Shown: one piece after another, positions 15,311-38,326 of the stretch
How positions within the stretch are numbered: the first letter of the stretch is position 1
How the letters are laid out: every line of letters begins with the position of its first letter
DNA from: Candidatus Gastranaerophilales bacterium
GTDB lineage: Bacteria > Cyanobacteriota > Vampirovibrionia > Gastranaerophilales > Gastranaerophilaceae
Assembly (NCBI GenBank): GCA_947625305.1
Contig: CANQNW010000017.1
Span: 1 to 38,326 of the forward strand
Direction: 5' to 3'
Length of the DNA stretch: 38,326 nucleotides
The notes under the pieces: model-generated
What the model was told of the DNA's origin: nothing
Databases searched by the model: none
Seen by the model: the letters and a program-made list of their open reading frames with translations, nothing else
Program-made: the position numbers and the translations under genes

Positions 15311-15316
15311 ATATTA

Positions 15317-15842: not shown

Positions 15843-15848
15843 AGCTTT

Positions 15849-15877: not shown

Positions 15878-15881
15878 CAAA

Positions 15882-18362: not shown

Positions 18363-18368
18363 ATTTTA

Positions 18369-18397: not shown

Positions 18398-21047
18398 GAT
18401 TTATTTCATTATATTTAATATTTCCGTTTTCGGGCAGTTTATGACAGGTAAAATATAAAACCTGATTGGTTTTAGAAAACTCTTCAAGACATTTTAAAGT
18501 ATTTTTTGTGCGATTAATATCAAAGTTAACAAAAGCATCATCTATAATTAAAGGCAAATCCGCTTTGCCGTTCGGAGCTGAGGTTATTTTATCCTTTGAA
18601 TAATTTGATGCAAACCCCAATCTTAAAGCCAGATATAATTGTTCTTTTGTTCCTCTTGAAAGTTCCTCCCACTTTTTTATTCTGCCCTCGGGTGTTTCTA
18701 TTTCCTGAAGTTCCAAATTGATTTTATTATATTTTCCGTTTGTTAATTCAAATAAATATTTTTGAGCATTAACCAAATCAGGCTGTGTTTTATCGAAATC
18801 CCTTTTGGCTGAAGATATAATATCTGCCTGCATTTTATTTATCAGAAGTTTTTTGATTACATTTCTGTATTTATCAATTGCTATTTTTCTTTGGGATTTT
18901 ATATCCGCCATATTCCCCAATTTTTCAAGGTCTTTTTTTTGATATTCTGCCTCTTTTAGTGCGGTTATTAAATTATCTTTTTCCGTTTTTAAAATCTCTT
19001 TTTGGCTTTCTGCTTCATTTAATTCCGCTTGAGCCTCAAATTGTGATTTTTTATCCTCTTTAATTTGTATTTTTTCTTTTAATTCATTAATTGATGTTTG
19101 GATTATTTCTATATCTTTTTTTATTGCCGAGTTTTTATTTGCCGTTTCACCTAATTTTTCGGTAAATTCTTTCATATCTCCCGTATATGTAACGGAAAGC
19201 TCCGTTATATTTATAAAATCTTTTATGTTATCAACTATATTTTTATTTATATTTTCAGTTTCTTTTGTTTCATTTAAAAGATTTTCACATTCTATCAGTT
19301 CTTTTTTCAAATTCCTTATTATATCAATAACTCCAATGTAATTTTCAGGGTATAATTTATTTTGCGAAATTGTTTTATCCATACATAAATCCGCTTCATT
19401 ATTTATTTTTTGAAGTTTTAGCATAAGTTCTTTTATTTTATTATTTATATTATTTTTCTTTGCTTGTGATAGTTCCTTATCGGAATTATTTTTTATAATT
19501 TCCTTAAGGTTTTGATTTAGGTTATTTAGCTTTATATGCAAAGAATAATCATCAAAATCCGAACTGAAATTTTTATCATAGTTTTGAGCTTTATTTTTTA
19601 AAGTATTTAAAAGATTTTCAAGTTTGTCTTTTTTAGCAGATAGCTGAGAACTTTTTTGGCTGTTTTTGCCTGCAAGCAGAATAAAGCCAAAAACAAGGGA
19701 TATTACAGTGCTGACAGCTAAAATTATTGAAGGCAGTTCCAGTTTATTATACGCACTTATGATAAGCCCTATAATTATCAGAAAAATTATAATCCCCCAA
19801 ATTAAAATATTTTTTTTATCCGAGGTATTTTTTATCTCTTTCAGATTTTTTTCATCATTATTTATTTCCGCACTAAGCGCATAATATTGGTTTAAGCCCT
19901 CATCTATATCAGTTGAAAGAGTTTTTATAATGTTTAAATTATTATTTGAATTATCTTTTACTAGTGTTTTATGCTTAACCTCTGATTGCAAAATAGCATC
20001 TTCTATAATATCCAGTTTGCTCTCAGTTGTTTTAATTTCTGATTTCAAATCCGATATTTCTTTTATAAGATTTTTAAGTTTATAAATGTTATCCTCATTA
20101 ATTACAAAATTTTTAATTGTTTCATCGTCTAACGATAACTGATAATTGGAAATCAAATTATTTTTTTCGGATTTTATATTATTTTGGATTTCTTCAAGTT
20201 TTTGATTATTCTTTTCAATAAGATTTTGATTGGAATAAAATGTACCTGAATTTTCCAAAATTTCGGATATATTTTTCTGCCTTTCAAATAATTTTTGATT
20301 AAATTCGGAATTTAATCTTTTTAACTGCTCTGTTTTAGTTTCCAGTTCCGTATAATCAATTTTTAAATTTTCCAAAAGAGATATGTATTCTTCTTTTTTA
20401 GAAATTGTTTCAAGTTCATTATTTAACTGTTCTATGGTTTTAAGGCAGTTATTATATTGAGTTTCCCGTTTAGTGAGCTCCGAAATTTTTTCATTCAATT
20501 CTTTTATCTGTGTGACAATTCCGTTAAAATCTTTCCTTAATTTTCCGTCTTTGCCGATAATCTGCTGTATATTATCATCAATTTCAGCCGAATATTTTTT
20601 AACTTTGTCGCTGTATGGGTCTTTTATTAAATCAATAAGTTCCGATACCGATTTATTTTGGATTTTCATTAAATCATCAAGATTAATATAAAACCCCTGT
20701 TCAAAAGATGTTTTATCAATTTCATTATCAATAATGTTTTTGGGACACTCGGTATTTTCAATGATATTATAAATTTTGCATCTTTGCTCTAACGGTTTTA
20801 AGGTATTAATATCAGCTCTATAAGATAATTTTTGGTCGTTTTTGTTGATACTGAACCAAATTTTACCCGTGTCAGAGCCTTTTTGTTTATAAATTCCGTC
20901 TTTTATAAATTTCATTAACGATGATTTTCCGGTTTCATTTTCACCGAAAATGACATTCAGCCCCTCCGTAAAATCATACTTAACCCCTGTATTAATATCT
21001 TTGGAGGTTTTTTCAATTAATATATTGTCAATAACAAATTTCCCCAT
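18393..21047 (-). CDS. YhaN/SbcC-like SMC-type ATPase
   Basis: An 884-aa SMC/Rad50-like ATPase expected to drive a partner nuclease in DNA end repair. The N-terminal lobe has Walker A GENETGKSS (35-43). Long coiled coils fill the middle, interrupted by two hydrophobic segments at about 403-455 (ILIWGIIIFLIIIGLIIS and SIILAVSTVISLVFGFILL), which is characteristic of YhaN rather than cytosolic SbcC. The C-terminal lobe has the signature LSRGTKEQLYLALRL and Walker B LPLIIDDAFVNFD. The start lies 1 nt after the upstream phosphoesterase gene, with a GGAAGG ribosome site inside that gene's end, so the two are coupled. Confidence 0.88.
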   Translation of the reverse strand: MGKFVIDNILIEKTSKDINTGVKYDFTEGLNVIFGENETGKSSLMKFIKDGIYKQKGSDTGKIWFSINKNDQKLSYRADINTLKPLEQRCKIYNIIENTECPKNIIDNEIDKTSFEQGFYINLDDLMKIQNKSVSELIDLIKDPYSDKVKKYSAEIDDNIQQIIGKDGKLRKDFNGIVTQIKELNEKISELTKRETQYNNCLKTIEQLNNELETISKKEEYISLLENLKIDYTELETKTEQLKRLNSEFNQKLFERQKNISEILENSGTFYSNQNLIEKNNQKLEEIQNNIKSEKNNLISNYQLSLDDETIKNFVINEDNIYKLKNLIKEISDLKSEIKTTESKLDIIEDAILQSEVKHKTLVKDNSNNNLNIIKTLSTDIDEGLNQYYALSAEINNDEKNLKEIKNTSDKKNILIWGIIIFLIIIGLIISAYNKLELPSIILAVSTVISLVFGFILLAGKNSQKSSQLSAKKDKLENLLNTLKNKAQNYDKNFSSDFDDYSLHIKLNNLNQNLKEIIKNNSDKELSQAKKNNINNKIKELMLKLQKINNEADLCMDKTISQNKLYPENYIGVIDIIRNLKKELIECENLLNETKETENINKNIVDNIKDFINITELSVTYTGDMKEFTEKLGETANKNSAIKKDIEIIQTSINELKEKIQIKEDKKSQFEAQAELNEAESQKEILKTEKDNLITALKEAEYQKKDLEKLGNMADIKSQRKIAIDKYRNVIKKLLINKMQADIISSAKRDFDKTQPDLVNAQKYLFELTNGKYNKINLELQEIETPEGRIKKWEELSRGTKEQLYLALRLGFASNYSKDKITSAPNGKADLPLIIDDAFVNFDINRTKNTLKCLEEFSKTNQVLYFTCHKLPENGNIKYNEINL

Positions 21048-25337: not shown

Positions 25338-26345
25338 ATGATATTAATAACAGGCGGAGCAGGTTATATAGGAAGTCATACCGTTATAAACTTATTAAAT
25401 CAGGGTTATAAAATAGCTGTTTTTGATAACCTTTCTACAGGACATATTGAAACGATTGATACACTTAAAGATATCGGAGATATTAAGTTTATACAGGGCG
25501 ATTTATGTAATATCAAAGACTTGGAAAATTTATTTTGCAATTATGATATTCAAGCCGTTATTCATTTTGCAGCATTTTCACTTGTTGAAGAATCATGTAT
25601 TAATCCTAAGAAATATTATATAAATAATGTCATGGGAACATTGAATTTATTAAACACAATGTTAAAATATGATGTTAAAAAGATAGTATTTTCATCAACT
25701 TGCGCTACATACGGAGTGCCGAAAATATTGCCTCTTGACGAAAATCATCCGCAAAATCCGATTAACCCATACGGAAATACAAAGCTGACAATCGAGCGGA
25801 TATTAAAAGATTATGATAAAGCATACGAACTAAAATCCATAATTTTAAGATATTTTAATGTAGCAGGCTGCGACTCATTAATAAGAATAGGGGAATGGCA
25901 TGTGCCTGAAACCCATTTAATACCTAATATTTTGAAATCAGTAACCGAAAAAGATAAAGTATTTAAAATATTCGGTACTGATTATGATACAAAAGACGGA
26001 ACCTGTGTAAGAGATTACGTAAATGTAGAAGACTTAGCAGAGGCGCACAGACTGGCTCTTGAATATTTATTTAAATCAAATAAATCTGATATATTTAACA
26101 TCGGAACCGAAAACGGAAATACCGTCAAAGAAGTATTTGATATATGTAAAGAAATAACAAATACAAATATTAAAGTGGAAGAAACGCAAAGACGGGCAGG
26201 TGATCCGCCGAGTTTATACGCAAATGCCAAAAAAGCTAAAGAAATTCTCGGCTGGAATCCGAAAAAAACTCTTTATGACAGTATAAAAACAGCTTGGTTA
26301 TGGGAGAAAATATTATTTAATAATATATCTAAAGAGGAAATTTAA
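25338..26345 (+). CDS. galE: UDP-glucose 4-epimerase
   Basis: A 335-aa extended SDR that interconverts UDP-glucose and UDP-galactose (or the N-acetyl forms), supplying sugar nucleotides for surface glycans. NAD-binding GGAGYIG at 6-12, FDNLSTGH, HFAAFSLVEES, catalytic FSSTCATYG and Tyr145/Lys149 in NPYGNTK, then ILRYFNVAGC and RDYVNVEDLAEAH. The length is normal. It is followed after 3 nt by an SDR gene, forming a two-gene unit that converges on the large minus-strand cluster. Confidence 0.95.
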   Translation: MILITGGAGYIGSHTVINLLNQGYKIAVFDNLSTGHIETIDTLKDIGDIKFIQGDLCNIKDLENLFCNYDIQAVIHFAAFSLVEESCINPKKYYINNVMGTLNLLNTMLKYDVKKIVFSSTCATYGVPKILPLDENHPQNPINPYGNTKLTIERILKDYDKAYELKSIILRYFNVAGCDSLIRIGEWHVPETHLIPNILKSVTEKDKVFKIFGTDYDTKDGTCVRDYVNVEDLAEAHRLALEYLFKSNKSDIFNIGTENGNTVKEVFDICKEITNTNIKVEETQRRAGDPPSLYANAKKAKEILGWNPKKTLYDSIKTAWLWEKILFNNISKEEI

Positions 26346-26348: not shown

Positions 26349-27092
26349 ATGACATTTTTTACTAAAGATAAATTTTATATAGTAACAGGAGCAAGTTCCG
26401 GAATTGGAAGAACAACCGCATTATTATTAAATGAACTTGGGGGCAGTGTTATTGCAGTAGCAAGAAATAAAAATCGTTTGGAAGAGATGAAAACAAACTG
26501 TAAAAACCCTCAAAATATGTATTTAGAAGTAAAAGATTTGACGGAAGATATAGAAAACCTTCCCATTTATGTTAAGAATTTAAAAGATAAATATGGGAAA
26601 TTTGCAGGAATGGCATATTGTGCCGGAATTGGAATAAGAAACCCTTTAAGAACCATTGATTATGAAACTATTAAAAAAATATTCGACATAAACTATATTG
26701 CACCAATATTAATGACAAAAGGAATAGCCGATAAAAGAAATAATATAGGAAAAGGTTGTTCTTTAGTATATCTATCATCAATCGATGCAAAATTATCAAG
26801 TAAAGGTCAGCCGTTATATAGCGGTTCTAAAGCTGCATTAAGTGCAACAATTAAGTCCTTATCAAAAGAGGTAGTTCAAAACGGTATAAGAATGAATTGC
26901 ATTTTACCATCTATGATTGTTACCCCGATGACAAAATCAGATGAATTCCATACTAATGAAATATGCGAACAATATCCGTTTGGCTGGGGTGAAACTATTG
27001 ATGTCGCGAATATGATAATATTCCTTCTATCTGATGAGTCAAAATATATTTCAGGTCAAAACTATGTCGTTGATTCAGGCGGAGTTTTATAA
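26349..27092 (+). CDS. SDR-family oxidoreductase
   Basis: A 247-aa classical short-chain dehydrogenase. Cofactor motif TGASSGIG (13-20), CAGIGI at the NNAG position, a catalytic SSID block and Tyr157/Lys161 (YSGSK), then ILPSMIVTPMT and the C-terminal YISGQNYVVDSGG. It is FabG-like in layout but its substrate is unknown. It is cotranscribed with galE and ends 4 nt from the convergent LuxC-like gene, with no terminator visible between. It may act in the same glycan or acyl pathway as the adjoining cluster. Confidence 0.9.
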   Translation: MTFFTKDKFYIVTGASSGIGRTTALLLNELGGSVIAVARNKNRLEEMKTNCKNPQNMYLEVKDLTEDIENLPIYVKNLKDKYGKFAGMAYCAGIGIRNPLRTIDYETIKKIFDINYIAPILMTKGIADKRNNIGKGCSLVYLSSIDAKLSSKGQPLYSGSKAALSATIKSLSKEVVQNGIRMNCILPSMIVTPMTKSDEFHTNEICEQYPFGWGETIDVANMIIFLLSDESKYISGQNYVVDSGGVL

Positions 27093-27096: not shown

Positions 27097-28269
27097 TTAA
27101 ACTATTTCTCTTGATAATTCATAAATAAGGTTGTGTCCGTCCCATATTACATCTATATCCATGGCTTTACCAATTGGGACAATCCTGTCTATACCTTTTA
27201 AATTATTTTTTATTATATCATTTCTTAATGTTTCGGGATTAATCCCAAAATAAGTAATGGTTTGATATTTTTCATTTATTATATTAAAAAGTTCATCATA
27301 ATTTTTTAATGAATATTCGTAAAAATAACCGCCGTTACCCCTTAATTCCGTTATATTTTCATCAATTTTGTTTAATTCTATTCTGTATAAAAGATTTTCG
27401 ACATTTTGAAAGTTTGAAATATAATCGGAATTTAATATTGCATCTTCGCAGATTTTTGTATATTTATCAACACTGACGGCATCTTGAAAATTATATTTTT
27501 CTTTTGCACAAGTATAAACGAATTCCCAAAACTTATCACGGGCAGTTTTATTATCATTGAGCCAATAAATTAACTGCGGAGAAGAACAGGCATTTTGATC
27601 CATCAGGTAAGTATCATTATAAAAATCAATGCTAAATCGTTTTAATTTATCTTCATCAAGTGTTTTAATTTCCTCAGCATTTATAATTGCAATTGAATAT
27701 CTGTCGGGAAAAGTTATATCAAAACATCTTGGTTTTGTTTTGTAGGATTTGAACAGTTCAATTGTTTTATCTCCGCCCCAAATCATTCTGCAATCAGCAA
27801 TTGAGGAAAAATAAGCATTAATTTCGTCATCTTTTTCATATTTTACAAAAGCTGTTCTTTTTTCAATCTCAGGATAATTTTTCAAAAATTCTTTCAAAAA
27901 ATTGCAAATAAAATCTACCTGCGGAAAGTCTTTGCTTGGTAATCTTACAATGTTAGAGCATCCCGCTAAAAGAGCAAACGCATAAGAAAAAACAGAATTA
28001 ACAGGAATATTAGACGGGGCTATATGAAAACATAATCCCCGACCGAGTCTGTTAATTTTACCCCCCCCCATTAGGTTTTTCAAATTTTGAATATTTGCTT
28101 TTCTTGCCCAAAAAGCAAAAGCTGATAAATCGGTAAACTCTCTGATTTTAGAAGATTTTAAAAGACAGGATGATACATCATTTAAAAAATTAATAACACA
28201 ATCACTAAAAGGTTCTAATGGTGTATCTATAGTATTTTCATTCCCTATAATATAATTAATGTTTTTCAT
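27097..28269 (-). CDS. LuxC-like acyl-CoA/acyl-protein reductase with a G9 tract
   Basis: A 390-aa aldehyde-dehydrogenase-fold reductase of the LuxC type, which reduces a thioester-bound acyl group to the aldehyde with NADPH. Motifs: FHIAPSNIPVNSVFSYAFAL, LAGCSNIVRLPSKD, and the catalytic Cys228 in DQNACSSPQ. Residues 68-70 (Gly-Gly-Gly) are encoded by nine G (28061-28069); one G more gives an immediate TAA and one fewer a stop some 15 codons on, so the gene is a likely on/off phase switch. It overlaps the LuxE-like gene by 14 nt and is last in the cluster. Confidence 0.85.
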   Translation of the reverse strand: MKNINYIIGNENTIDTPLEPFSDCVINFLNDVSSCLLKSSKIREFTDLSAFAFWARKANIQNLKNLMGGGKINRLGRGLCFHIAPSNIPVNSVFSYAFALLAGCSNIVRLPSKDFPQVDFICNFLKEFLKNYPEIEKRTAFVKYEKDDEINAYFSSIADCRMIWGGDKTIELFKSYKTKPRCFDITFPDRYSIAIINAEEIKTLDEDKLKRFSIDFYNDTYLMDQNACSSPQLIYWLNDNKTARDKFWEFVYTCAKEKYNFQDAVSVDKYTKICEDAILNSDYISNFQNVENLLYRIELNKIDENITELRGNGGYFYEYSLKNYDELFNIINEKYQTITYFGINPETLRNDIIKNNLKGIDRIVPIGKAMDIDVIWDGHNLIYELSREIV

Positions 28270-29335
28270 AAGTATCAGAGCAACCCCTTATTTCTGCATT
28301 TTTAATACGACCTAATATGTTAAAATATTTGCCTTTTCTACCACAAGGACAGTCATCTTCACCCAAAATTATCCCCTCATCTTCAGTTAAAAGCGAGTGC
28401 CCGGGGTAAGATTCAGGTAAAAGCGAAACAACTTGAATAATACCCTTTTCCCCAATCGGAGCAAGCGAGAAATCCTTTGTGTTTCTTATTATTACATCAG
28501 AAAATATTGAAGCATGTAAGTGTCCATACTCACATTCCATATAAACACATCCCGTCTGTTCAACCATTCCATAATAGTCATGAACATTATTAAGTGCACA
28601 AACATCTTTTAAAGCTTTTTTAAAATCTTCTTTAGAAACAGCTTCATTAATAAGTTTTTTCCAGCCTCCTCCGTGGATTAAAATGCCGTTTGATATATCA
28701 AGTTTTTTATTTAACTTTTTTAATTCCTTATAAAAATACTGCCAAATCATAAAAGTAAAGCCAAAAAGCAGTATCGGTTTTCCTTTGTGTTTATCTAAAA
28801 AGGTTTCAATTGCCTTTAAATCAAGGTTCATATCTTCATCAAGTGCATAAGTTCTGTCCGCACCAAAAATAGAAAACCCCAAAATCCCGGCACCTCGAGC
28901 CGAAAACATTAATCTGTTTTTAATAACGGATGGTGAATCAATAATAAGCATCGGCATTCTTGAAGCTCCCGTAAAGTCGGAAACTATTTTAACCAGTGTC
29001 TTTTGTTGATTTAGTGCTGTCGCTTTATCTAAAACTATTTTAGAAACCGCCTGACCCGAAGTACCCGATGATGTCATAGTCTTAAATATTTCATCTTCTT
29101 TTATACTTGCAAGGTTAAATTCTTTAAATAAACGAACAGGAATAAAGGGAATATCCGAAACTGTTTTCAAAGCATCAAAATTAATGTTCAAGGTGTTTAA
29201 GATTTTTCTGTAATTACCGCAATTTTCATAATGATACTTTGTTAAATCAAAAAGCCCGTCAAACAATAATTTTTCTTTTTCATTTTTATTTAAGGAATAT
29301 GGAGCAATATTTAAAATCTCATCATAATTAAGCAT
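28256..29335 (-). CDS. LuxE-like acyl-protein synthetase
   Basis: A 359-aa adenylating enzyme of the LuxE family, which activates a carboxylic acid with ATP and holds it as a thioester for the LuxC reductase. Conserved features: DIPFIPVRLFKEF, the nucleotide-binding TSSGTSGQAVSKI, LLFGFTFMIWQYF, ILIHGGGWKKL, and DYYGMVEQTGCVYMEC. Cys352, eight residues from the C-terminus in IRGCSDTYEKH, corresponds in position to the acyl-accepting cysteine near the LuxE C-terminus. Overlaps of 8 and 14 nt with its neighbours indicate coupled translation. Confidence 0.88.
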   Translation of the reverse strand: MLNYDEILNIAPYSLNKNEKEKLLFDGLFDLTKYHYENCGNYRKILNTLNINFDALKTVSDIPFIPVRLFKEFNLASIKEDEIFKTMTSSGTSGQAVSKIVLDKATALNQQKTLVKIVSDFTGASRMPMLIIDSPSVIKNRLMFSARGAGILGFSIFGADRTYALDEDMNLDLKAIETFLDKHKGKPILLFGFTFMIWQYFYKELKKLNKKLDISNGILIHGGGWKKLINEAVSKEDFKKALKDVCALNNVHDYYGMVEQTGCVYMECEYGHLHASIFSDVIIRNTKDFSLAPIGEKGIIQVVSLLPESYPGHSLLTEDEGIILGEDDCPCGRKGKYFNILGRIKNAEIRGCSDTYEKH

Positions 29336-30737
29336 TTATAAGCTCCAGATTTTTATATAGAGTTTTTCCTGCTTCATTTTTAGGAATTTCTTTAATTACA
29401 ATAACTCTAAATGCAGTAAAATTAAGCCCTGTTTTTTGTGATATAAAATCTGATACTTCCTTTTTACAGTTTTCATCAGTTATATAAATATCCATTTTAT
29501 CATCAATTCCCGTGCAGGCACACTCTAACATGGGAAAATGAGCCTTAATTAGTCGTTCTGTTTCATCTAAGTTTACTCTGTTCCCGAAAATCTTCAAAAA
29601 TCTTTTTTTCCTGCCGACAATATAGAAAAATCCGTCTTTATCAAACTTTGCCATATCGCCCGTTATAAGTTTACCGTTTCTTTCGTCGCCCAAAGCCAAA
29701 TCTTCGCCTTTTTGTGCGTAGCCTAATGTAACATTATCACCCTCATATACAAGCTCGCCGACAGTTTCAGGGGCTTTAATTATATTCCCTTCCGCATCAA
29801 TTAACGAGAATTTACCTCCCGGGATAGCTATTCCCATAGAGCCGTACTTTTCTAAAGACTTTTCTGCCGGCAGATAGCTCATCCTTGCAGTAGCTTCTGT
29901 TTGTCCGTACATTACGATAAATTTTTTATTATTTTCTTTTGCCCAAGACGCAAATTGCTCATGGAGTTCAGGTGATAATTTCCCGCCCGCTTGCGTCATA
30001 TACCGGAGAGAAGGTAAATTCATCCTGAAAAATCTTAAACGGTTTAGCATTTCATAAGTATAAGGTACTCCGCCGAAAGAGGTTGCCTCATAGTCTTTAA
30101 ATTGACTCCAAAACTCTTTTTGCATTAAACCTTTTTCAGTTAAAACTAAACTTGCTCCAACCCATAAATGAGTATTAATTATGGATAAGCCGTAAGTGTA
30201 GTTCATCGGTAAAGTTGTAATAGCTCGTTCAGTTTCATCAAGGGACAGATATTCAACTATTGATTTTGTATTAGCCTCAATATTTTTATAGCTTTGACGC
30301 ACTAACTTTGGACTGCCTGTCGAACCTGATGTTGTTAAAAGCAATGCCAGTTCAGGATTTAGTTCATATTCATTATTAAACGGAGTTTTTAAAAGTGTAT
30401 AATTAAGGTTTTCATAAACACATCCGTAATTTTCGAATTTATCTTTAATATCAGACGGAACATTTATATAATCAGGTTTATATGTATTAAGCATAAAATT
30501 TAATAGTTCATCATCCAAGTCGCTTTTAAGCATTAAAGGAACAATTTTTTTATTCAAAAAACCAATATAGCCGACCAGAGAGCCTATTTCATTCCTGCAT
30601 AAATTAAAAACGAGACACCTTTTAGGAATATTCACGGTTAAACTTTTACAATAATCATCAAACTCTTTATAATTTATTTTTTTATTATCTTCGGTAATTA
30701 TTGCAATATTATCCTGAAATTTATTCAAATTCCACAT
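29328..30737 (-). CDS. AMP-dependent acyl/aryl ligase (ANL superfamily)
   Basis: A 469-aa adenylate-forming ligase, probably loading an acid onto the adjacent carrier protein. Core motifs: LLTTSGSTGSPKLVRQ (A3), MYGQTEATARMSY (A5), GELVYEGDNVTLGYA, TGDMAKFDKDGFFYIVGRKK (A7/A8) and the C-terminal catalytic lysine in NEAGKTLYKNL (A10). It is somewhat shorter than typical CoA ligases. It lies 22 nt after the ACP gene with a GAGGTG ribosome site. The substrate is unknown; a short or branched acid rather than an amino acid is my guess from its company. Confidence 0.87.
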   Translation of the reverse strand: MWNLNKFQDNIAIITEDNKKINYKEFDDYCKSLTVNIPKRCLVFNLCRNEIGSLVGYIGFLNKKIVPLMLKSDLDDELLNFMLNTYKPDYINVPSDIKDKFENYGCVYENLNYTLLKTPFNNEYELNPELALLLTTSGSTGSPKLVRQSYKNIEANTKSIVEYLSLDETERAITTLPMNYTYGLSIINTHLWVGASLVLTEKGLMQKEFWSQFKDYEATSFGGVPYTYEMLNRLRFFRMNLPSLRYMTQAGGKLSPELHEQFASWAKENNKKFIVMYGQTEATARMSYLPAEKSLEKYGSMGIAIPGGKFSLIDAEGNIIKAPETVGELVYEGDNVTLGYAQKGEDLALGDERNGKLITGDMAKFDKDGFFYIVGRKKRFLKIFGNRVNLDETERLIKAHFPMLECACTGIDDKMDIYITDENCKKEVSDFISQKTGLNFTAFRVIVIKEIPKNEAGKTLYKNLELINA

Positions 30738-30759
30738 AAAAGCACCTCGTTAAAAAGCA

Positions 30760-31005
30760 TTATTGAGCAAAATCTACATCATATTTTTGAGATAAAATTT
30801 CTTTACCTTTTTCAAAAGAACTTAAATCAATAATATCTTCTGTTTCCATCATAATATCAAAAGCTTCTTCCAGATTTGCAACAAGTCCCATGTGACCAAC
30901 CGAATCCCAAGCTTTGATATCCTGATATTTAAGTGCAGGAGCATCTTTTGGTTCAATTTCAAAAGCTTGAACAAACGCATTTGTGTATTTTTCTAAGTTT
31001 GACAT
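30760..31005 (-). CDS. Acyl carrier protein
   Basis: An 81-aa acidic helical carrier. The phosphopantetheine serine is Ser35 in AWDSVGHMGL, which fits the DSx-hydrophobic carrier motif. This is not the housekeeping AcpP (DSLDTVEL type) but a pathway-specific carrier. It sits between the second transketolase pair and the ligase that probably charges it; the gene begins immediately after the transketolase stop. It likely carries the acyl unit that the hotdog proteins and SDRs modify. Confidence 0.9.
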   Translation of the reverse strand: MSNLEKYTNAFVQAFEIEPKDAPALKYQDIKAWDSVGHMGLVANLEEAFDIMMETEDIIDLSSFEKGKEILSQKYDVDFAQ

Positions 31006-31974
31006 TTATATTTCCTCCAATTTGTTTAATATTTTTTCTGCAATTTTGGGTGCGGTCAGCCCTGTTTTATCAAGCATATAGTTATACTCGCCCGCTTTTT
31101 CAAATTTATCGTCAAGACCGATTATTAATTGTTTTGGTGCGTTTTTATTTGATTTATATTCCGCAACAGCACTTCCTAAACCGCCGATTTTAAAATGCTC
31201 TTCTATTGTAACAAAAAAATTATATTTTGCAAAAATCTTGTCCAAAGTTTCATAATCCAAAGGTTTTATTGTATGAAAATTATAAACGGAAACCGAAATA
31301 TTATTTTTCTTTAAAGCTCTTGCGGCTCTCATTGCCTCGTAAACCATTGTTCCCGTTGCAATAAGCGCAATATCCTCGCCTTCTGTCATTTGAATTGCTT
31401 TACCTATTTTAAACTCGTAATCTTCTTTATAAGCGTTTGGTGTCCCGTTCACGCCCGTTAATCTTACATAACAAGGTCCTTCAAATTTTCTTAGAGCTTC
31501 GATTACTTTATAAGTTTCAACGCAATCAGCAGGTGAAATAACGGTCATATTAGGTATAGTCCTTGTTAGTGCTATATCTTCCAAACCATAATGAGTGTTT
31601 CCGACAACTCCTCCGCCTAAACCCGCTAAAAGACCCACTATTTTGACATTTAAATTCATATACCCGACTTGTGTTCTTAACTGTTCAAAACATCTCATAG
31701 AGGCAAAAGGAGCAAAAGTTGAAGCAAAAACGTTATATCCTTCGCTTGCTAATCCCGCAGCTATACTTATCATATTCTGTTCCGCTATCCCTGTGTTTAT
31801 TATTTTTTTTGGGAATTTTTGCGCAAACTCTTCTAATTTTGATGAAGTCATTACATCAGATACAACTGCCATTATATTATCATTTTCCTTCGTCAAATCG
31901 GCCATAGCTTTGCCATACACTCCGCGAGAAGCCAGCCTTGTTAATTCCATCATATTTTTTAAATTAAATTCCAT
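31006..31974 (-). CDS. Transketolase C-terminal subunit, copy 2
   Basis: A 322-aa protein containing the pyrimidine-binding and C-terminal domains of a split transketolase. The catalytic glutamate is in NTGIAEQNMISIAAGLASEG, followed by ASTFAPFASMRCFEQLR, the GLEDIALTRTIPNMTVISPAD block, YVRLTG and the C-terminal FHTIKPLDYETL and TIEEHFKIGGLGSAVAE. It pairs with the N-terminal subunit 2 nt upstream. Such split pairs transfer a two-carbon ketol unit between sugars or to an aldehyde acceptor. Unlike copy 1 it has no homopolymer tract. Confidence 0.92.
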   Translation of the reverse strand: MEFNLKNMMELTRLASRGVYGKAMADLTKENDNIMAVVSDVMTSSKLEEFAQKFPKKIINTGIAEQNMISIAAGLASEGYNVFASTFAPFASMRCFEQLRTQVGYMNLNVKIVGLLAGLGGGVVGNTHYGLEDIALTRTIPNMTVISPADCVETYKVIEALRKFEGPCYVRLTGVNGTPNAYKEDYEFKIGKAIQMTEGEDIALIATGTMVYEAMRAARALKKNNISVSVYNFHTIKPLDYETLDKIFAKYNFFVTIEEHFKIGGLGSAVAEYKSNKNAPKQLIIGLDDKFEKAGEYNYMLDKTGLTAPKIAEKILNKLEEI

Positions 31975-31976
31975 TT

Positions 31977-32759
31977 TTACACCTCTAATTCTTTTAGTGC
32001 CTGATTATATTCTTCTTCGGTTATTGAAGAGTGGTGCCATTTTGGTTTATTTTCCATAAAAGATATGCCTTTTCCTTTAACAGTATCAGCTATTATAACT
32101 AAAGGTTTATCGGTTTTGGTTGAAAAGGCTTTTATAATTTCGTCAAAATTATGTCCGTTAATTTCTATTGTTTCAAAACCGAAAGAAACAAACTTATCTT
32201 TCCAATTTTGAAGATTTAAAATATCTTTGGAAAAACCGTCCAATTGCATTTTATTGTTATCTAAAATTAAAACAATATTATCTAATTTTTTAGCCCCGAT
32301 AAACATAACCGATTCCCAAAAAGAACCTTCGTTTGTTTCACCGTTGCCCGATAAAACATAAATTTTATTATTTATACCTTTATTTTTTAAGGCGATTGCT
32401 TGACCTATAGCATACCCTAAACCCATTCCAAGGCTGCCTGATGACAGTTCAATATTTTTGTCTAAATTTTTAACGCAATGAGAAGGAAAATCACCGCCGT
32501 TTGCGTTAAAAGTAAGCAATTCTTCTTTTGATAGATAGTTAAATTCGGCTAGAGCACCATACAAAGCAAGTGCGCAATGACCTTTGCTTAAGATAAATCT
32601 GTCTCTTTTTTCATTATTCTCTTTTTTTAATACTGAAAAAACATAAGTTAATAATTCAACGCAGGATAACGAACCGCCATAGTGAGCGGATTTTGACCTA
32701 AACCCCGCTTCTATTATATTTTTTCTTATGTTTTTTGCTCTTAATGATAAATCAATCAT
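31977..32759 (-). CDS. Transketolase N-terminal subunit, copy 2 (GNG variant)
   Basis: A 260-aa thiamin-diphosphate-binding half of a split transketolase. Features: FILSKGHCALALYGAL, SSGSLGMGLGYAIGQAIALK, and the cofactor motif that reads GNGETNEG with Asn139 where the Mg-binding Asp of GDG is usual, followed by ILDNNKMQLDG. Whether Asn still supports the cofactor is unclear. An AAAGGAG ribosome site precedes the ATG and a hairpin terminator lies between it and the copy 1 pair, so this second module may be expressed at a different level. Confidence 0.9.
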   Translation of the reverse strand: MIDLSLRAKNIRKNIIEAGFRSKSAHYGGSLSCVELLTYVFSVLKKENNEKRDRFILSKGHCALALYGALAEFNYLSKEELLTFNANGGDFPSHCVKNLDKNIELSSGSLGMGLGYAIGQAIALKNKGINNKIYVLSGNGETNEGSFWESVMFIGAKKLDNIVLILDNNKMQLDGFSKDILNLQNWKDKFVSFGFETIEINGHNFDEIIKAFSTKTDKPLVIIADTVKGKGISFMENKPKWHHSSITEEEYNQALKELEV

Positions 32760-32788
32760 TTTTAAATTTCTCCTTTCAAAAAGTCAAT

Positions 32789-32821
32789 AAAAAATCGGCT
32801 TTTATCTTGAGCCGATTTTTT
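32789..32821. terminator. Intrinsic terminator inside the cluster
   Basis: AAAAAATCGGCT, loop TTTATCTTG, AGCCGATTTTTT: a perfect 12-bp stem with T runs on both strands, in the 77-nt gap between the two transketolase pairs. It should attenuate read-through into the second half of the cluster. Confidence 0.85.
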
Positions 32822-32836
32822 GATTTTAAAAGGATT

Positions 32837-33829
32837 TTATAAATTCCTATACGCTGACAATATTTTTTCGCTAATTGCTTGAGGCGTTAACCCGTATTGT
32901 TCAAGCATATATTCATAAGACCCTGCTTTTATATATTTATCTTTGATACCTATAAATAAATGAGGAGGCTTATTTTTAATTTCGGATAAACATTCGCTGA
33001 CAGCACTTCCCAAACCGCCTATAATGGAATGCTCTTCAATTGTTACAATTAATTTAGCCTTACAACATTTTTTTACGATTTCAACATCAATCGGCTTAAT
33101 AGTATGTATATTAATAACTTTTACATGGAGTTCTTCCCCCCCCCCGTTGATTTTTAGAATATCTTTAATTGTTTGAACAGCTTTAAGAGCTGCATTAAGC
33201 ATAGAACCCGTTGCAATAACAGCTATATCTTCACCTTCTTGAAGTATTTGAGCTTTTCCGATTTCAAAATCATAATCTTCTTTATGTACTATAGGATTAT
33301 TAAAACTGCCCGTAAGTCTTATATAACAAGGTGAATTTAATTTTTGAGATGCAAGGATACATTTTACTGTTTCCATACAATCACATGGGGATAATATGGT
33401 AATATTTGGAATTGACCTTATTAAAGCTATATCTTCTATCGCAACGTGAGTTGCGCCTAAAATTCCAACAGCAAGCCCCGCTGTTAGACCAATAAGTTTT
33501 ACAGGCAGTTTCATATAGCCCATATTAACTTTAATTTGGTCTAAACACCTTGAAATAAAAGAAGCATAAGTTGTAACAAAAGGGTTTAATCCTTCTTTTG
33601 CCATGCCTGCAGCAACGCCTATTATATTTTGTTCTGCTATACCTAAATTATAAAAATTATTCGGATATTCGTCTTTAAATCTGGTTAATCCGGAAAAATA
33701 GCATAAATCAGGAGTTAAAATGACGATATTCTCATCGTTTTCGGCTAATTCCATTGCTGCAATACCAAAAGCACCGCAAGAACCAAGTCTTGACCACATT
33801 CTTATATCGGAAGGACTGTATTTAAGCAT
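32837..33829 (-). CDS. Transketolase C-terminal subunit, copy 1, with a G10 tract
   Basis: A 330-aa split transketolase C-half with the catalytic Glu66 in NLGIAEQNIIGVAAGMAKEG, VTTYASF, THVAIEDIALIRSIPNITIL, CYIRLTG and TIEEHSIIGGLGSAVSE. Residues 229-231 (Gly-Gly-Gly in LKINGGGEELH) are encoded by ten G (33136-33145). This segment is an insertion relative to copy 2, just before the shared HTIKP motif. A slip of one base either way gives a stop within about a dozen codons, losing the last ~90 residues. A phase-variable role is therefore likely. It starts 3 nt after its N-terminal partner. Confidence 0.9.
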   Translation of the reverse strand: MLKYSPSDIRMWSRLGSCGAFGIAAMELAENDENIVILTPDLCYFSGLTRFKDEYPNNFYNLGIAEQNIIGVAAGMAKEGLNPFVTTYASFISRCLDQIKVNMGYMKLPVKLIGLTAGLAVGILGATHVAIEDIALIRSIPNITILSPCDCMETVKCILASQKLNSPCYIRLTGSFNNPIVHKEDYDFEIGKAQILQEGEDIAVIATGSMLNAALKAVQTIKDILKINGGGEELHVKVINIHTIKPIDVEIVKKCCKAKLIVTIEEHSIIGGLGSAVSECLSEIKNKPPHLFIGIKDKYIKAGSYEYMLEQYGLTPQAISEKILSAYRNL

Positions 33830-33832
33830 AAT

Positions 33833-34654
33833 TTATACTCCCAATTCAACAAGTGCTTTATCGTGCAGTTCTTTTGATAAAGCCCCGTTATGCCACTTTG
33901 GTTCATTTTCCATAAAAGAAATTCCTTTACCTTTAATCGTTTTTGCGATAATACATAGAGGATTGCCGCGATGAACGGTTTCAAACCCTTTTTGAAGCTC
34001 CGGTGTATTATGTCCGTCAAGTATAACGGTTTTAAAACCAAAACTTTCCCATTTTTCTTTAAACGGTTCAAGTTTCATAATATCTTCCGTTTTTCCGTCA
34101 TATTGCAGAGAATTTTTATCTATAATTACAATTAAATTATCAAGTTCAAAATTTGAAGCAGACATTGCGCTTTCCCAAACAGAACCTTCGTTACATTCAC
34201 CGTCGCCCAATAAAACATAAACTTTGGAAGAAAAATTTTTCTTTTGTTTAAGGGCAAGAGCCGTCCCGACTCCTAACGATAAGCCCTGCCCCAAACTGCC
34301 CGAAGAAAACTCAATTCCCAGATTTTTATTCATAGAAGGGTGTGCAGATATAAAAGAACCGTTTTTCTTGTAGGTTAAAAGTTCTTCTTTTGTAATTAAC
34401 CCCATTTGTTCAAATACCGCATATTGAGCCATAACTCCATGGCCTTTACTTAAAATAAATCTGTCTCTGGTTTCTTCGGTCGGATTTTTAGGGTTGAAAT
34501 TTAAAATATTGAAATATAATACGGTTAATATTTCAACCATAGATAACGCCCCTGCAATATGCGCTCCTTGTAAACCCGTATTATACGTCATTTCTATGAG
34601 ATTGCGACGAATTAACCTTGAAATTTCTTTTAGTTTTGTTGTATTATACCTCAA
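33833..34654 (-). CDS. Transketolase N-terminal subunit, copy 1
   Basis: A 273-aa thiamin-diphosphate-binding half of a split transketolase with a canonical GDGECNEG motif (Asp151), FILSKGHGVMAQYAV, SSGSLGQGLSLGVGTALALK and IDKNSLQYDG. The start is TTG at 34654, overlapping the upstream SDR stop (TTGA); GGAGGG lies 5 nt before it, which supports this start. It works with the C-terminal subunit that follows after 3 nt. The acceptor is unknown; in this cluster it could be a sugar or an aldehyde made by the LuxC/LuxE pair. Confidence 0.92.
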   Translation of the reverse strand: MRYNTTKLKEISRLIRRNLIEMTYNTGLQGAHIAGALSMVEILTVLYFNILNFNPKNPTEETRDRFILSKGHGVMAQYAVFEQMGLITKEELLTYKKNGSFISAHPSMNKNLGIEFSSGSLGQGLSLGVGTALALKQKKNFSSKVYVLLGDGECNEGSVWESAMSASNFELDNLIVIIDKNSLQYDGKTEDIMKLEPFKEKWESFGFKTVILDGHNTPELQKGFETVHRGNPLCIIAKTIKGKGISFMENEPKWHNGALSKELHDKALVELGV

Positions 34655-35391
34655 CCCAGCCCTCCGCTTACGCTTATAATTTCACCCGTTATATAAGTTG
34701 ATAAATCGGAGCATAAAAAAGCTGCGGCATTTGCAACTTCTTTTGCTTCACCCATTCTTTTCAGATATGATTTTTTTAAATTTTCTTCGATATGTTCCTG
34801 CCCTATAAAATTCATCATATCTGTTTTAATAAACCCCGGAGCAAGCGCATTAACCCTTATATTTTTTTCTCCCAATTCCGCTGCCATTGTCTTTGTCAAA
34901 GAAGAAACCGCAGCTTTTGAAGCACCGTAAACGGCTCTGCCTATATCTCCGCCTTTTGCTGAAACGGAAGATATATTGACGATTGAACCTTTTGAGTTTC
35001 TTATCATAAGTTTTGCGATATATTGCGATATTAAAAATACGGAGTTGAAGTTAATATTAAATTCTTTTTGAACATCATCTAAAGTTGACATTAAATATAA
35101 AGAATTTTGAGTTATTCCCGCATTATTGACAAGACAGTCTATCGGAATTTTATAGGAATTTATTTTTTTTATTCCTTCTTTTATTTCATCTTTATTTGAA
35201 ACATCAAAATATATAGGATAAATTTGTGTATTGTATTTATTTTTTAATTCCGTAATCAAATTTTCAAATTCTTGCGTTTGAACTCTGGCACAAGCAAAAA
35301 TATTTGCCCCGAATTGTGCAAAAGTTTCTAAAATTGCTCTACCTATACCGCGATTTGCGCCCGTTATAATAATATTTTTATTTTTCAGCAT
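34651..35391 (-). CDS. FabG-like SDR oxidoreductase 2
   Basis: A 246-aa classical SDR from the ATG at 35391 (MLKNKNIIITGANRGIG); an in-frame ATG at 35460 would add a 23-residue extension with no homology to the fold. Cofactor motif TGANRGIG (10-17), NNAGIT (89-94), catalytic NISSVSAKGG and Tyr155/Lys159 (YGASK), C-terminal YITGEIISVSGG. Likely a 3-oxoacyl-ACP reductase or ketone reductase for the pathway. A +1 change in the poly-G tract of the preceding SDR would join that gene in frame to the 35460 ATG and this protein. Confidence 0.9.
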   Translation of the reverse strand: MLKNKNIIITGANRGIGRAILETFAQFGANIFACARVQTQEFENLITELKNKYNTQIYPIYFDVSNKDEIKEGIKKINSYKIPIDCLVNNAGITQNSLYLMSTLDDVQKEFNINFNSVFLISQYIAKLMIRNSKGSIVNISSVSAKGGDIGRAVYGASKAAVSSLTKTMAAELGEKNIRVNALAPGFIKTDMMNFIGQEHIEENLKKSYLKRMGEAKEVANAAAFLCSDLSTYITGEIISVSGGLG

Positions 35392-35460
35392 TCTAAGCAC
35401 ACTTTCTCTTATTTTCAAAAGTGAATTTAGAAATTGTTGTTGAAAAATTAAACTTATCAT

Positions 35461-36225
35461 TTAATCTTCTACCCCCCCCCCTGCGAAAGAGGATATTCCG
35501 CCATCTATTCTTAGAATTGCTCCGTTAATAAATGACGCTTCATCTGAAGCAAGGAAATACACTGCTTGAGCGATTTCAGAGGGTTTTGCCAATCTTTTCA
35601 TAGCCGAAGCATTAATCATATTTTTTTCGGCTTTTTCTTCCATTAATTTTGCCATATTTGTATCAGTCAGCCCCGGCGCAACCGAATTAACCCTGATATT
35701 ATACTTTGCGCATTCGGCTGCAAGCGTTTTTGTCCAGGCGATAACGGCAGCTTTTGAAGTGCCGTAAGCGCAATTTCCTTCAGCTGAATCAAGTCCTGAA
35801 ATGGAAGAAATATTTACAATTGAGCCTTGTTTTTGCCTTGTCATAAACTTTAGAACAAGCTGGGTTAATTCCATTTGCGCAAAAAGGTTTATTTCAAAAA
35901 TTTCCTTAATTTTTGAAACGGGGGTCATTTGAAAAAACCCGCCGTGGGCAACACCTGCGTTATTAATTAAAGCATCAATTTTGATTTTTTTGGAGTATAA
36001 CTCCAAAATTGCGCTTTTCATAGCTTTATAATCAGTCATATCAAAATAAATCGGCGTTGTTTCAATGTTATATTTTTTTGAAATTTCTTTTAGGCAATTT
36101 TCAAAGCCTTCGTCTTTTTTTCTTGCACAAGCAAGAATATTATAAGAATTTTTAGCGAATACTTCCGTTATAGCACTTGCTATACCGCCTTTTGCTCCCG
36201 TAATTAAAACATTTTTAGTTGTCAT
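35461..36225 (-). CDS. FabG-like SDR oxidoreductase 1 with a C-terminal G10 tract
   Basis: A 254-aa classical SDR. Cofactor motif TGAKGGIA (9-16, last Gly replaced by Ala), NNAGVAHGG, NISSISG, Tyr154/Lys158 (YGTSK) and the C-terminal FINGAILRIDGG. The last residues AGGGVED are encoded across ten G (35472-35481). With G9 the frame ends at once (TAG). With G11 the stop is missed and the frame runs straight into the next SDR, fusing the two. The catalytic fold is complete before the tract, so slippage changes the tail, not the enzyme. A good AAGAGGAAAA ribosome site precedes the ATG. Confidence 0.9.
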   Translation of the reverse strand: MTTKNVLITGAKGGIASAITEVFAKNSYNILACARKKDEGFENCLKEISKKYNIETTPIYFDMTDYKAMKSAILELYSKKIKIDALINNAGVAHGGFFQMTPVSKIKEIFEINLFAQMELTQLVLKFMTRQKQGSIVNISSISGLDSAEGNCAYGTSKAAVIAWTKTLAAECAKYNIRVNSVAPGLTDTNMAKLMEEKAEKNMINASAMKRLAKPSEIAQAVYFLASDEASFINGAILRIDGGISSFAGGGVED

Positions 36226-36246
36226 TATTTTTCCTCTTTTTAAAAA

Positions 36247-36738
36247 TTAAATTATTTCCAAGCTGAATTCGCCCTGCGAGAGAATTTGTCCGTTTTCTTT
36301 TTCAAATATCAAAGAAAAATCTTCCTTTTTAGTCTCTCTCTCTTTATTTGCCAAACAAGCACAGCCTTTTACTGTTACTATTTTGCCGTCGTTGTTTAAA
36401 ATTTCTGTTTTTATACAAATTGCATCATCGGGAAATATCGGTTTATAGATAAATACATCCGTATATTTATTCAAAATAATGTCTTTTAATTTTAATTTTT
36501 CATCCTGTTTTTTTAGGGCAACAACTGCTAATTGAGCCATTGCTTCAATCTGAAAAACAATAGGAGCAACAGGTTTATCCGGAAAATGACATTTGAAATA
36601 CCATTCGCCACAGGAAAATTTCTTGTAAGCAAAAGCTGTGTTTCCTTTTATAATTACTTTATCTATAAATATATAAGACCGGTCTTCTTTAAGATATTCG
36701 CAAGGCTTATTAATTACTGTTGGGTTATTGACACACAT
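36247..36738 (-). CDS. FabZ-like hotdog dehydratase 2
   Basis: A 163-aa hotdog-fold protein similar to 3-hydroxyacyl-ACP dehydratase FabZ. The catalytic pair is conserved at the normal spacing of 14: His51 in CHFPDKPVAP and Glu65 in QIEAMAQLA. The usual HFPGxPV reads HFPDKPV here and in its paralogue in this cluster, which may mark a distinct subfamily acting on an unusual acyl-ACP. Its start overlaps the radical SAM gene by 25 nt. Confidence 0.85.
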   Translation of the reverse strand: MCVNNPTVINKPCEYLKEDRSYIFIDKVIIKGNTAFAYKKFSCGEWYFKCHFPDKPVAPIVFQIEAMAQLAVVALKKQDEKLKLKDIILNKYTDVFIYKPIFPDDAICIKTEILNNDGKIVTVKGCACLANKERETKKEDFSLIFEKENGQILSQGEFSLEII

Positions 36739-37784
36739 TGCTTTTCTTCTTTCTTAATGTAGTCGTCTTCGCCGAATATTTCTTTTGCGTTTATATATTT
36801 AAATACCGTTGTATCCTCTTTTAAGAATTTCTTTCTGAAATCTCTGTTAAAAGCAGCAATACAAACCGGACTGTATTGACCGAAGTATTTAATACTAAAA
36901 CCGTAATCCAAAATTTCTTTTAAGGATTGCTCAAAAATATTACCGATTTTTATAGGTAAAAAAGGACAGGGTAAAACATCGCCCAAAGGTGAAATATAGG
37001 GTCTGTTTACCGACCAGCATCCCGTTATTGCCTCTTTTTTAGGGTCATACATATCCCAGGTATCAAAGAAACAATTATAATTTTTTCTTATGTATTTAAG
37101 CCTTTCCATATCTTTTGCATCCATAACATCATCTTTAAAAGAACCGTAAGGCATCGCCATTAAAAAATAGGTGGAATAATCTTTTTCTTTTGCATAATTT
37201 AAAATATCTTCCAAATCCTTTGAAAATGCGTTATGGTGTCCGAAAATAACGTTAGGCCATGCTGCCATGCCTGCATTTTTGGAATATTCAAGCGCTTTTA
37301 GAGCATGCGCGTGAGCATTTGGAACGTGGCGTTCTTTATCGTGATTTTGGGCATTCATTGTTGAAACAGATACCGCTACACAATCAAGTCCCGCGTCCGC
37401 CAATTGATTTGCATATTCCTGAGTCATTAAAAAACCGTTTGTAATTAATACAATTTGAAATCTTTCCGGTTTAAAGGCTTTAATTAAATCGATAAGTGAT
37501 TTTTTATTAAGTGTTAATTCTCCGCCTTGCAGAACAATTTCCCAAATGCCGAGTTCGTGTGCTTCATCTGCCAGTTTTTCAACGGCATCTAAAGGCAGGG
37601 TGATTTTTGAATGTTCATTATCCAATTCGGTTGAATAACAAAAGTCGCATTTAAAATTGCAGGCATTATTATAATTTATTATTATAGAACGCGGTATGTT
37701 GTTGATTTTGTTGCCATTTTTTCTTACATTTCGCATATAGGTTTGGACTTTTTTGATAACAGCAGTTTTTTTAATAAATGTCAT
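36714..37784 (-). CDS. Radical SAM enzyme with SPASM/twitch-like C-terminus
   Basis: A 356-aa radical SAM protein with CNFKCDFC (Cys42, Cys46, Cys49) to hold the SAM-binding 4Fe-4S cluster, LQGGELTLN and ITNGFLM. C-terminal cysteines (TGCWSVNRPYISPLGDVLPC and later SPVC) suggest a second iron-sulfur site of the twitch or SPASM kind. Substrate unknown; in this setting modification of a sugar, lipid or carrier-bound acyl group is more likely than a peptide, as no precursor lies nearby. GGAGG with 7-nt spacing precedes the ATG, and it overlaps the upstream hotdog gene by 4 nt. Confidence 0.87.
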   Translation of the reverse strand: MTFIKKTAVIKKVQTYMRNVRKNGNKINNIPRSIIINYNNACNFKCDFCYSTELDNEHSKITLPLDAVEKLADEAHELGIWEIVLQGGELTLNKKSLIDLIKAFKPERFQIVLITNGFLMTQEYANQLADAGLDCVAVSVSTMNAQNHDKERHVPNAHAHALKALEYSKNAGMAAWPNVIFGHHNAFSKDLEDILNYAKEKDYSTYFLMAMPYGSFKDDVMDAKDMERLKYIRKNYNCFFDTWDMYDPKKEAITGCWSVNRPYISPLGDVLPCPFLPIKIGNIFEQSLKEILDYGFSIKYFGQYSPVCIAAFNRDFRKKFLKEDTTVFKYINAKEIFGEDDYIKKEEKQCVSITQQ

Positions 37785-38287
37785 TTAGATACCTCCGTTC
37801 TTTTTGGACAAGATAATTCAAGCATTTTTGGTACAACAGATTGAAAAGTTGCGCGGCAGCAGAGTGTTCTTTGTTCTCTTGTAAAATTTTTCTCAAGATA
37901 ACCCGCGCAAACGGCTTTAAGTATTCCTCTTTTAAAGCTTTCTATTTTTGCTTCGACGGTCATTAATTCGCCCGGATGTACCTGTTTTAGCACTTCGAAA
38001 TTAAAAAATTTTTGAGGATATACAAAATCAACATTTTCATCATCCAGAGTGTAAATACATAATGCTGCGGTTTCCATTAATGATTCCAATAATAATCCGC
38101 AAGGCACAATCGGATTATCGGGATAATGGCTTTTGAAGTACCATTCGTTATTTGAATAGTATTTTTTACCGACTGCTCTCACTCCGGGATATATTTCGGC
38201 ATTGTCTACAAAAATATACGGGGATTTCAATCTTAGATATTTTTCTAAATTTTTGTAGTCAACATATATTTTCTTTGTACTATTCAT
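37781..38287 (-). CDS. FabZ-like hotdog dehydratase 1
   Basis: A 168-aa hotdog-fold protein, paralogue of the 36247-36738 gene. Catalytic His54 (SHYPDNPIVP) and Glu68 (LLESLMETAA) are 14 residues apart as in FabZ. The position where FabZ normally has Gly after the motif Pro is Cys (VPCGLLL). It is probably a dehydratase acting on a carrier-bound 3-hydroxyacyl group, or a non-catalytic partner of its paralogue. AAGGGAAAA forms the ribosome site. It is the first visible gene of the cluster, but the operon may begin beyond the right edge. Confidence 0.85.
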   Translation of the reverse strand: MNSTKKIYVDYKNLEKYLRLKSPYIFVDNAEIYPGVRAVGKKYYSNNEWYFKSHYPDNPIVPCGLLLESLMETAALCIYTLDDENVDFVYPQKFFNFEVLKQVHPGELMTVEAKIESFKRGILKAVCAGYLEKNFTREQRTLCCRATFQSVVPKMLELSCPKRTEVSK

Positions 38288-38301
38288 TAAATTTTCCCTT
38301 G

Positions 38302-38322
38302 CAACATTTTATAAAAATGTTG
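38302..38322. promoter_or_regulatory. Perfect 9-bp inverted repeat before the cluster
   Basis: CAACATTTT, ATA, AAAATGTTG, 15 nt upstream of the first hotdog gene and just before its ribosome site. It could be an operator or an mRNA hairpin; the promoter lies at or beyond the window edge. Confidence 0.45.
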
Positions 38323-38326
38323 TATT

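Follow-up and report, generated by a model that had tools for sequence, protein, structure and literature searches.

Background

In light-emitting bacteria LuxE activates a carboxylic acid, which LuxC then reduces to an aldehyde. A five-gene core made up of an acyl carrier protein (ACP), a reductase, a ligase, LuxE and LuxC has been reported in flagellin islands of Aeromonas (PMC7874193), where it comes after pseH, and of enterobacteria (PMC4875605), and has been read as a pathway of fatty-acid or liposugar synthesis. Here we describe a 13-gene operon in which such a core stands next to two split transketolases. It lies on the minus strand (38287 to 27097) of contig CANQNW010000017.1 (C17) of a Candidatus Gastranaerophilales bacterium, a relative of cyanobacteria from the gut (assembly GCA_947625305.1; 1.97 Mb in 26 contigs), and the whole of this contig, 38,326 bases, is referred to below as the window. 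We propose, giving the idea about an even chance, that the operon is a surface-glycan tailoring cassette, in which an unusual hydroxylated side chain is built and given to an amino sugar.

The cassette has the same five-gene core as the flagellin islands (PMC7874193, PMC4875605), which also lies in a glycan locus and beside the gene of an amino-sugar N-acyltransferase (pseH). The islands differ in that no transketolase appears in the main text of the papers and in that the core is taken to channel fatty acids and fatty aldehydes; the Aeromonas island is likened here by its description only. With the LuxD-LuxE-LuxC system of luminous bacteria the cassette shares the LuxE and LuxC families with their acyl-carrying cysteines and, in many relatives, a thioesterase of type II or metallo-beta-lactamase (MBL) fold near LuxE. 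It differs from that system in scoring far under the NCBIfam cut-offs for the long-chain equivalogs (LuxE 93.2 vs 550, LuxC 32.4 vs 750), in the absence of a luciferase gene among the window proteins in profile scans, and in having thiamine pyrophosphate (TPP) enzymes instead; a long-chain LuxCDE bioluminescence operon was rejected on the scores and the missing luciferase. ACP, FabG-like and FabZ-like enzymes are common to the cassette and type II fatty-acid synthesis, but a Pfam scan of the window proteins found no beta-ketoacyl-ACP synthase (KS) in the operon, which has a ligase, LuxE/LuxC and TPP enzymes, and a type II fatty-acid synthesis cluster was rejected for want of the KS. The WecE/WecD, VioA/VioB and PseH pathways combine a transaminase with an N-acyltransferase, as is seen beside the cassette in relatives; they mostly use acetyl-CoA, whereas the cassette is proposed to use an ACP-borne unusual acyl group.

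The preliminary description of this DNA, made from its letters and open reading frames, knew of no described pathway with such a gene set. That is not so for the core, already reported in the flagellin islands. For the transketolases the statement seems to stand: a literature search, with subscription journals mostly outside its reach, found no paper joining LuxE/LuxC with transketolase in one pathway, and this extension of the core appears undescribed.

Methods

A LuxE scan of bacterial and archaeal genomes gave a sample of 80 loci (LuxE identity 65-99%) from Melainabacteria, Clostridia, Synergistetes, Spirochaetes, Proteobacteria, Elusimicrobia and Bacteroides. Transketolase residues were read by alignment to human transketolase and to the split enzyme of Carboxydothermus hydrogenoformans (PDB 6yaj), and 42 C-terminal transketolase subunits (TKC) from cassettes were compared with 37 housekeeping ones from relatives and cassette-bearing genomes.

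Results

ACP, ligase, LuxE and LuxC form a core found in nearly all complete LuxE-anchored loci. In 39 of the 80 loci it is adjoined by the gene of a short-chain dehydrogenase/reductase (SDR) and those of the N-terminal (TKN) and C-terminal subunits of a split transketolase. A search for the same gene set, which had been suggested in the preliminary description, found the order SDR-TKN-TKC-ACP-LIG-LUXE-LUXC (LIG, ligase) again in distant phyla, and because of this recurrence the operon is not a chance neighbourhood. The closest public LuxE (99% identical) belongs to a Candidatus Gastranaerophilales metagenome-assembled genome. Another TPP enzyme, resembling acetolactate synthase (ALS), occurs in 10 loci, each with NeuB, and the two TPP types occur together in a single locus, L037 (Fisher p 0.015). 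Mapped on the LuxE tree, transketolase is gained or lost about 29 times, and supported branches force no fewer than 11 of these changes. Since the two TPP types alternate and transketolase comes and goes so often on the tree, the TPP unit behaves like a module that can be exchanged, set on a core that makes aldehydes.

The surroundings of the core vary as well. Many loci have a type II thioesterase or MBL-fold hydrolase placed between the ligase and LuxE genes, lactate/malate-dehydrogenase-like genes adjoin LuxC in 14, and in six (L020, L035, L037, L060, L065, L081) LuxE and LuxC are apparently one fused protein of about 770 amino acids. The Gram-positive loci L031, L053, L069, L071 and L019 have an added ArnC-like glycosyltransferase, and some of them small SMR-like and GtrA-type membrane proteins too, hinting at transfer via undecaprenyl phosphate in this subset. 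Within the genus the cassette is patchy (LuxE in 5 and ligase in 4 of 41 surveyed genomes), and this is variable as surface loci are. One genome of the same genus (G025) has three transketolase pairs, five SDRs, FabH and two ACPs in its cluster, and on a second contig (L159) a ligase, a GNAT protein, LuxE, LuxC and a lactate-dehydrogenase-like gene; cluster L158, from this genus too, has three split transketolase pairs in succession at 11768-18843, with SDRs. A plasmid collection yielded only distant relatives, up to 50% identical. On one of these, a Rhizobium anhuiense plasmid (L092), a single region encodes TKN, TKC, an acyltransferase, ACP, ligase, a DegT aminotransferase, LuxE, LuxC, an SDR, FabZ and a GMC oxidoreductase; it adjoins a siderophore receptor and an amino-acid transporter, and its product is possibly diffusible.

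The cassette transketolases share the two-subunit architecture and the catalytic residues of the C. hydrogenoformans enzyme (PDB 6yaj/6yak) but not its sugar-phosphate-binding His, Asp and Arg. Among the 42 cassette TKC proteins His416 and Asp424 are lost in all and Arg474 in 41, the Asp424 site being taken by L, F, S, Q, A, V or G (Leu in 24), whereas H416, D424 and R474 are all kept in 37/37 housekeeping proteins. TPP-binding Glu366 is retained in 42/42. In the cassette TKN proteins H37, H77 and H258 are likewise kept in 42/42, and H110, the histidine that touches the ketol donor at its C1 hydroxyl, in 38/42. The cassette enzymes thereby have the TPP and catalytic residues of split transketolases (H37, H77, H110, H258, E366) without the sugar-phosphate and acceptor contacts (H416, R474, D424), and a housekeeping identity was rejected on the loss of the latter three. 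In phylogeny they form one clade apart from the housekeeping enzymes (support 100/99), and a separate housekeeping pair is encoded elsewhere in the same genome (C11:70520).

The equivalents of human Asp424 and Arg474 in the Escherichia coli enzyme, D469 and R520, are positions at which laboratory changes are described. The variants D469T, D469Y and D469S/R520Q have higher activity or kcat with propionaldehyde, in a reaction that joins it with hydroxypyruvate to 1,3-dihydroxypentan-2-one (PMC3657141). The same two positions are changed in the cassette, but naturally and at the Asp site to the residues listed above, while the laboratory changes were D469 to T/S/Y and R520 to Q/V. Because that reaction is exactly of the aldehyde-to-ketol type, the residue pattern of the cassette supports such a step; it does not tell the donor.

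The association was also approached from the transketolase side. One TKC of the cassette clade, picked up independently of LuxE in a Lachnospiraceae genome (L148), lies in the order WecE, SDR, TKN, TKC, LuxE, LuxC, SDR, one gene, ALS-like, glycosyltransferase, WecD-like, and the out-of-clade transketolases L189 and L190 have no LuxE nearby. In genomes of the same order (L161, L162, L163) another type of transketolase pair stands beside a nucleotidyltransferase and an epimerase, without LuxE, and in L161 and L162 also near radical SAM genes; these pairs fall outside the cassette clade, and the same Asp is absent from them too.

Genes of amino-sugar acylation are frequent neighbours of the core. 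A transaminase cluster is found in 30 loci, with one member above the WecE cut-off (585.6 vs 434.85), and NeuD-type acyltransferases in 16. A further family, of 244 amino acids and present in 19 loci, is without any Pfam match above cut-off; its AlphaFold model (mean confidence, pLDDT, 93) best matches WecD (template modelling scores 0.74/0.81), and the wecD hidden Markov model reaches one member at 1.5e-6. At least one transaminase or N-acyltransferase (WecE family, WecD-like or NeuD type) is present in 42/80 loci. The Kosakonia cassette adjoins fliA, with a VioB/NeuD-type acyltransferase (above cut-off) and a DesI-like sugar transaminase, and lies in a flagellin glycosylation island; E. coli genomes gave no DNA match to its ligase-luxE-luxC stretch. 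Since several amino-sugar acylation settings, the post-pseH position in Aeromonas (PMC7874193) among them, lie beside one and the same core, these neighbourhoods suggest an amino sugar as the receiver of an acyl group provided by the core. By arithmetic only, the 376.14 Da pseudaminic derivative of Aeromonas AH-3 (PMC7874193) matches a di-N-acetyl-pseudaminic residue (316.127) plus 60.021, a possible lead to what this core makes. The window showed no gene for a GNAT or hexapeptide acyltransferase, which in the same-genus cluster and many relatives is part of the cassette.

All the genes listed in the preliminary description (ligase, ACP, two FabZ-like, two FabG-like, LuxE, LuxC, transketolases and radical SAM) are found where it had placed them, with intact motifs. 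They form one compact operon whose intergenic gaps range from -25 to +77 bp and are mostly below 25. Its first gene within the window is hd1 (37781..38287), a FabA/FabZ-like hot-dog dehydratase (Pfam FabA, E 5.5e-10) with the His54/Glu motif HYPDNPIVPCGLLLE and without counterpart in L158, followed by a radical SAM/SPASM enzyme (36714..37784; Radical_SAM 2.2e-22, SPASM 8.9e-7) with the motif CNFKCDFC (CxxxCxxC) and by a second FabZ-like dehydratase, hd2 (36247..36738; FabA 2.5e-13), with HFPDKP..IE. The His/Glu residues of FabZ are thus intact in both dehydratases. This FabZ/radical SAM/FabZ end is not found upstream in L158, and a relative of the radical SAM enzyme (41%) lies beside a transketolase pair in L061. 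The possibility, raised in the preliminary description, that the cluster splits into unrelated units in relatives is borne out for this end only and fails for the rest; the FabZ-like pair with the radical SAM enzyme is an accessory part of the cassette. Two FabG-like SDR reductases with the Ser-Tyr-Lys motif come next, sdr2 (35461..36225) and sdr1 (34651..35460), respectively 83% and 67% identical to their relatives in L158.

The first transketolase consists of tkN1 (33833..34654), the TPP-binding subunit (Transketolase_N 1.4e-40; best PDB 6yak), and tkC1 (32837..33829; Transket_pyr/_C; best PDB 6yaj), with the changes R318C, H416T, D424L and R474S in human numbering; the second of tkN2 (31977..32759; Transketolase_N 6.9e-30) and tkC2 (31006..31974), with H416L, D424V and R474V. 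The pairs are about 47% identical to each other in both subunits, occupy the same positions in two same-genus genomes, and are not recent copies. The ACP (30760..31005) matches PP-binding_2 weakly (E 0.014), yet its motif W-D-S-x-G-H (W33 D34 S35 G37 H38, with the intact Ser35) is invariant across 62 homologues. The AMP-forming acid ligase (29328..30737; AMP-binding 6.3e-40; TSGSTGSPK) is presumed to load it. Loading of an amino acid, which the preliminary description had named as an objection to its pathway, is unlikely: at the usual alpha-amino-binding motif the ligase reads PMNYTYGLS, with no Asp. The LuxE-family acyl-protein synthetase (28256..29335; LuxE 1.4e-61) and the LuxC-family acyl reductase (27097..28269; LuxC 1.4e-24) close the operon, their acyl-carrying cysteines being invariant, Cys352 in 77/77 and Cys228 in 76/76 aligned homologues.

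Two genes on the plus strand meet the operon at its 3' end and are of uncertain membership: sdr0 (26349..27092), 61-63% identical to SDRs beside ACP2/FabH in L158 and in another contig of the same genome (C13), and a GalE-type UDP-glucose 4-epimerase (25338..26345; TIGR01179 428.6 bits, above cut-off). At the other end the contig stops at base 38326, just beyond hd1, so the operon may miss genes on its 5' side; the rightward search for glycosyltransferases or transporters that the preliminary description had advised ends there. Directly before hd1, on the minus strand (38292..38326), lies a 35-bp leader, AATACAACATTTTTATAAAATGTTGCAAGGGAAAA, with an imperfect palindrome inside, of which an identical copy precedes an sdr1-like SDR gene at the left end of C13 (L184 1-35). 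With up to 3 mismatches allowed these are its only two copies in the genome, both at contig ends, and it is possibly a promoter region, repeated or invertible, at which the assembly broke off. Beside the C13 copy (L184 946-3098) are FabH (73% to the same-genus cassette FabH), an sdr0-like SDR and a second ACP, and because these adjoin the repeat, part of the same pathway may lie on C13.

Elsewhere in the window, a methyltransferase, a BioG-type pimeloyl-ACP esterase and a class I/II aminotransferase stand in a row at 15882-18362 and are likely a biotin-synthesis set. An 884-residue protein with weak SbcC-like Walker B matches, beside a calcineurin-like phosphoesterase (18393-21047), makes a possible SbcCD-like pair.

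Discussion

In the proposed mechanism LuxE would activate a carboxylic acid and transfer it, bound to a cysteine as a thioester, to LuxC for reduction to the aldehyde. The split transketolases would put a two-carbon ketol unit on this non-phosphorylated, probably non-alpha-hydroxylated aldehyde to give R-CHOH-CO-CH2OH, the paired SDRs would reduce the new ketone, and in this operon the FabZ-like dehydratases and the radical SAM enzyme would modify the chain further. The ligase would hold a carboxylate on the ACP, and a GNAT or hexapeptide acyltransferase would pass the group on from there to a sugar nucleotide of the 4-amino-4,6-dideoxy type, at its amino group. We infer the order of these steps, with ligase and ACP acting last, as well as the identity of acid, donor and product. 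The acid-aldehyde-ketol logic had already been put forward in the preliminary description and is strengthened by the kept cysteines of LuxE and LuxC, the loss from the transketolases of the sugar-phosphate contacts and of the Asp that reads the acceptor hydroxyl, and the alternation of two TPP families beside the core. The product it had envisaged, a polyhydroxy ketone or branched sugar, has become less likely, as the genes found beside the cassette in relatives indicate an acyl substituent of a 4-amino-4,6-dideoxy sugar instead. The missing Asp424 speaks against alpha-hydroxy aldehydes as acceptors.

Several observations weigh against the tailoring proposal. Transketolase is missing from half of the 80 loci, so the core must have a transketolase-independent use. 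The loci were picked by LuxE similarity, many are incomplete and their counts are descriptive, and the neighbour clusters were named from a single representative each. In the genome itself no WecE scored above cut-off, and one distant WecD-like/GNAT query went unmatched. With the phosphate contacts lost, ketose phosphates should be poorer donors as well, which bears on the donor question. The transketolase product ends in CH2OH, so that it could return to thioester linkage with the ACP only if the starter carried a second carboxylate; since the plain product offers the ligase no carboxylate, a dicarboxylate or semialdehyde may serve as the starter, or the order of the steps may be different. 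The lactate/malate-dehydrogenase-like genes adjoining LuxC fit a hydroxy-acid starter.

Of the other explanations, the one closest to the literature is that LuxE and LuxC reduce medium or long fatty acids to aldehydes and that a lipid goes onto the glycan, or even, with transketolase and aminotransferase, that sphingoid-like amino-diols are made. LuxE/LuxC are known for fatty aldehydes, hydrophobic residues at the D424 site would suit an aliphatic aldehyde, some loci have FabH and ACP, and the flagellin-island core has been read in the same way (PMC7874193, PMC4875605). We nevertheless hold this unlikely in view of the missing chain-elongating KS in the operon, the low long-chain equivalog scores and the aminotransferase tested, which is a dTDP-sugar WecE. 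Quite improbable, in our judgement, is the branched sugar of the preliminary description, for which the transketolase would attach its C2 unit to a nucleotide-linked sugar at a keto group, in the manner of YerE in yersiniose formation: the glycan-locus setting and the lost sugar-phosphate contacts would agree with it, but the constant link to LuxE, LuxC, ACP and ligase would be left unexplained, and the LuxE-less pairs beside sugar-nucleotide genes (L161-L163) are outside the cassette clade.

A transketolase-type enzyme is reportedly used in NapB/NapD-type starter formation to put a glycolyl unit on an ACP, and the ACP gene does directly follow the transketolase genes in many loci. Such loading is, however, hard to credit here with LuxC left unexplained, no lipoyl-domain protein in the operon by the Pfam scan of the window proteins, and ALS-like enzymes occupying the same place. 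There is next to no likelihood that ordinary pentose-phosphate transketolases have drifted beside a glycan operon. The cassette proteins are true transketolase homologues with intact catalytic residues, but they have lost H416/D424/R474 in essentially all 42 cases, they are associated with LuxE repeatedly across phyla, and the genome has its own housekeeping pair elsewhere; action on pentose phosphates only, which the preliminary description had seen as fatal to its pathway, is for the same reasons improbable.

Conclusions

Overall, the operon would, on the proposed reading, be a case of amino-sugar acyl tailoring, a known type of pathway, with a real chance of new chemistry. A broader view, which we offer tentatively and would sooner expect to fail than to hold, is that of a widespread route in which thiamine enzymes, not Claisen condensation, make the carbon-carbon bonds on LuxE/LuxC aldehydes for acyl chains of surface sugars, with transketolases and ALS-like enzymes as exchangeable modules and two to three transketolases per operon. 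If true, these enzymes would be nature's equivalents of what chemists have sought by evolving transketolases towards simple aldehydes, the fatty-acid/liposugar reading of the flagellin-island core would be replaced, and genes in many surface-polysaccharide loci of gut bacteria would be explained.

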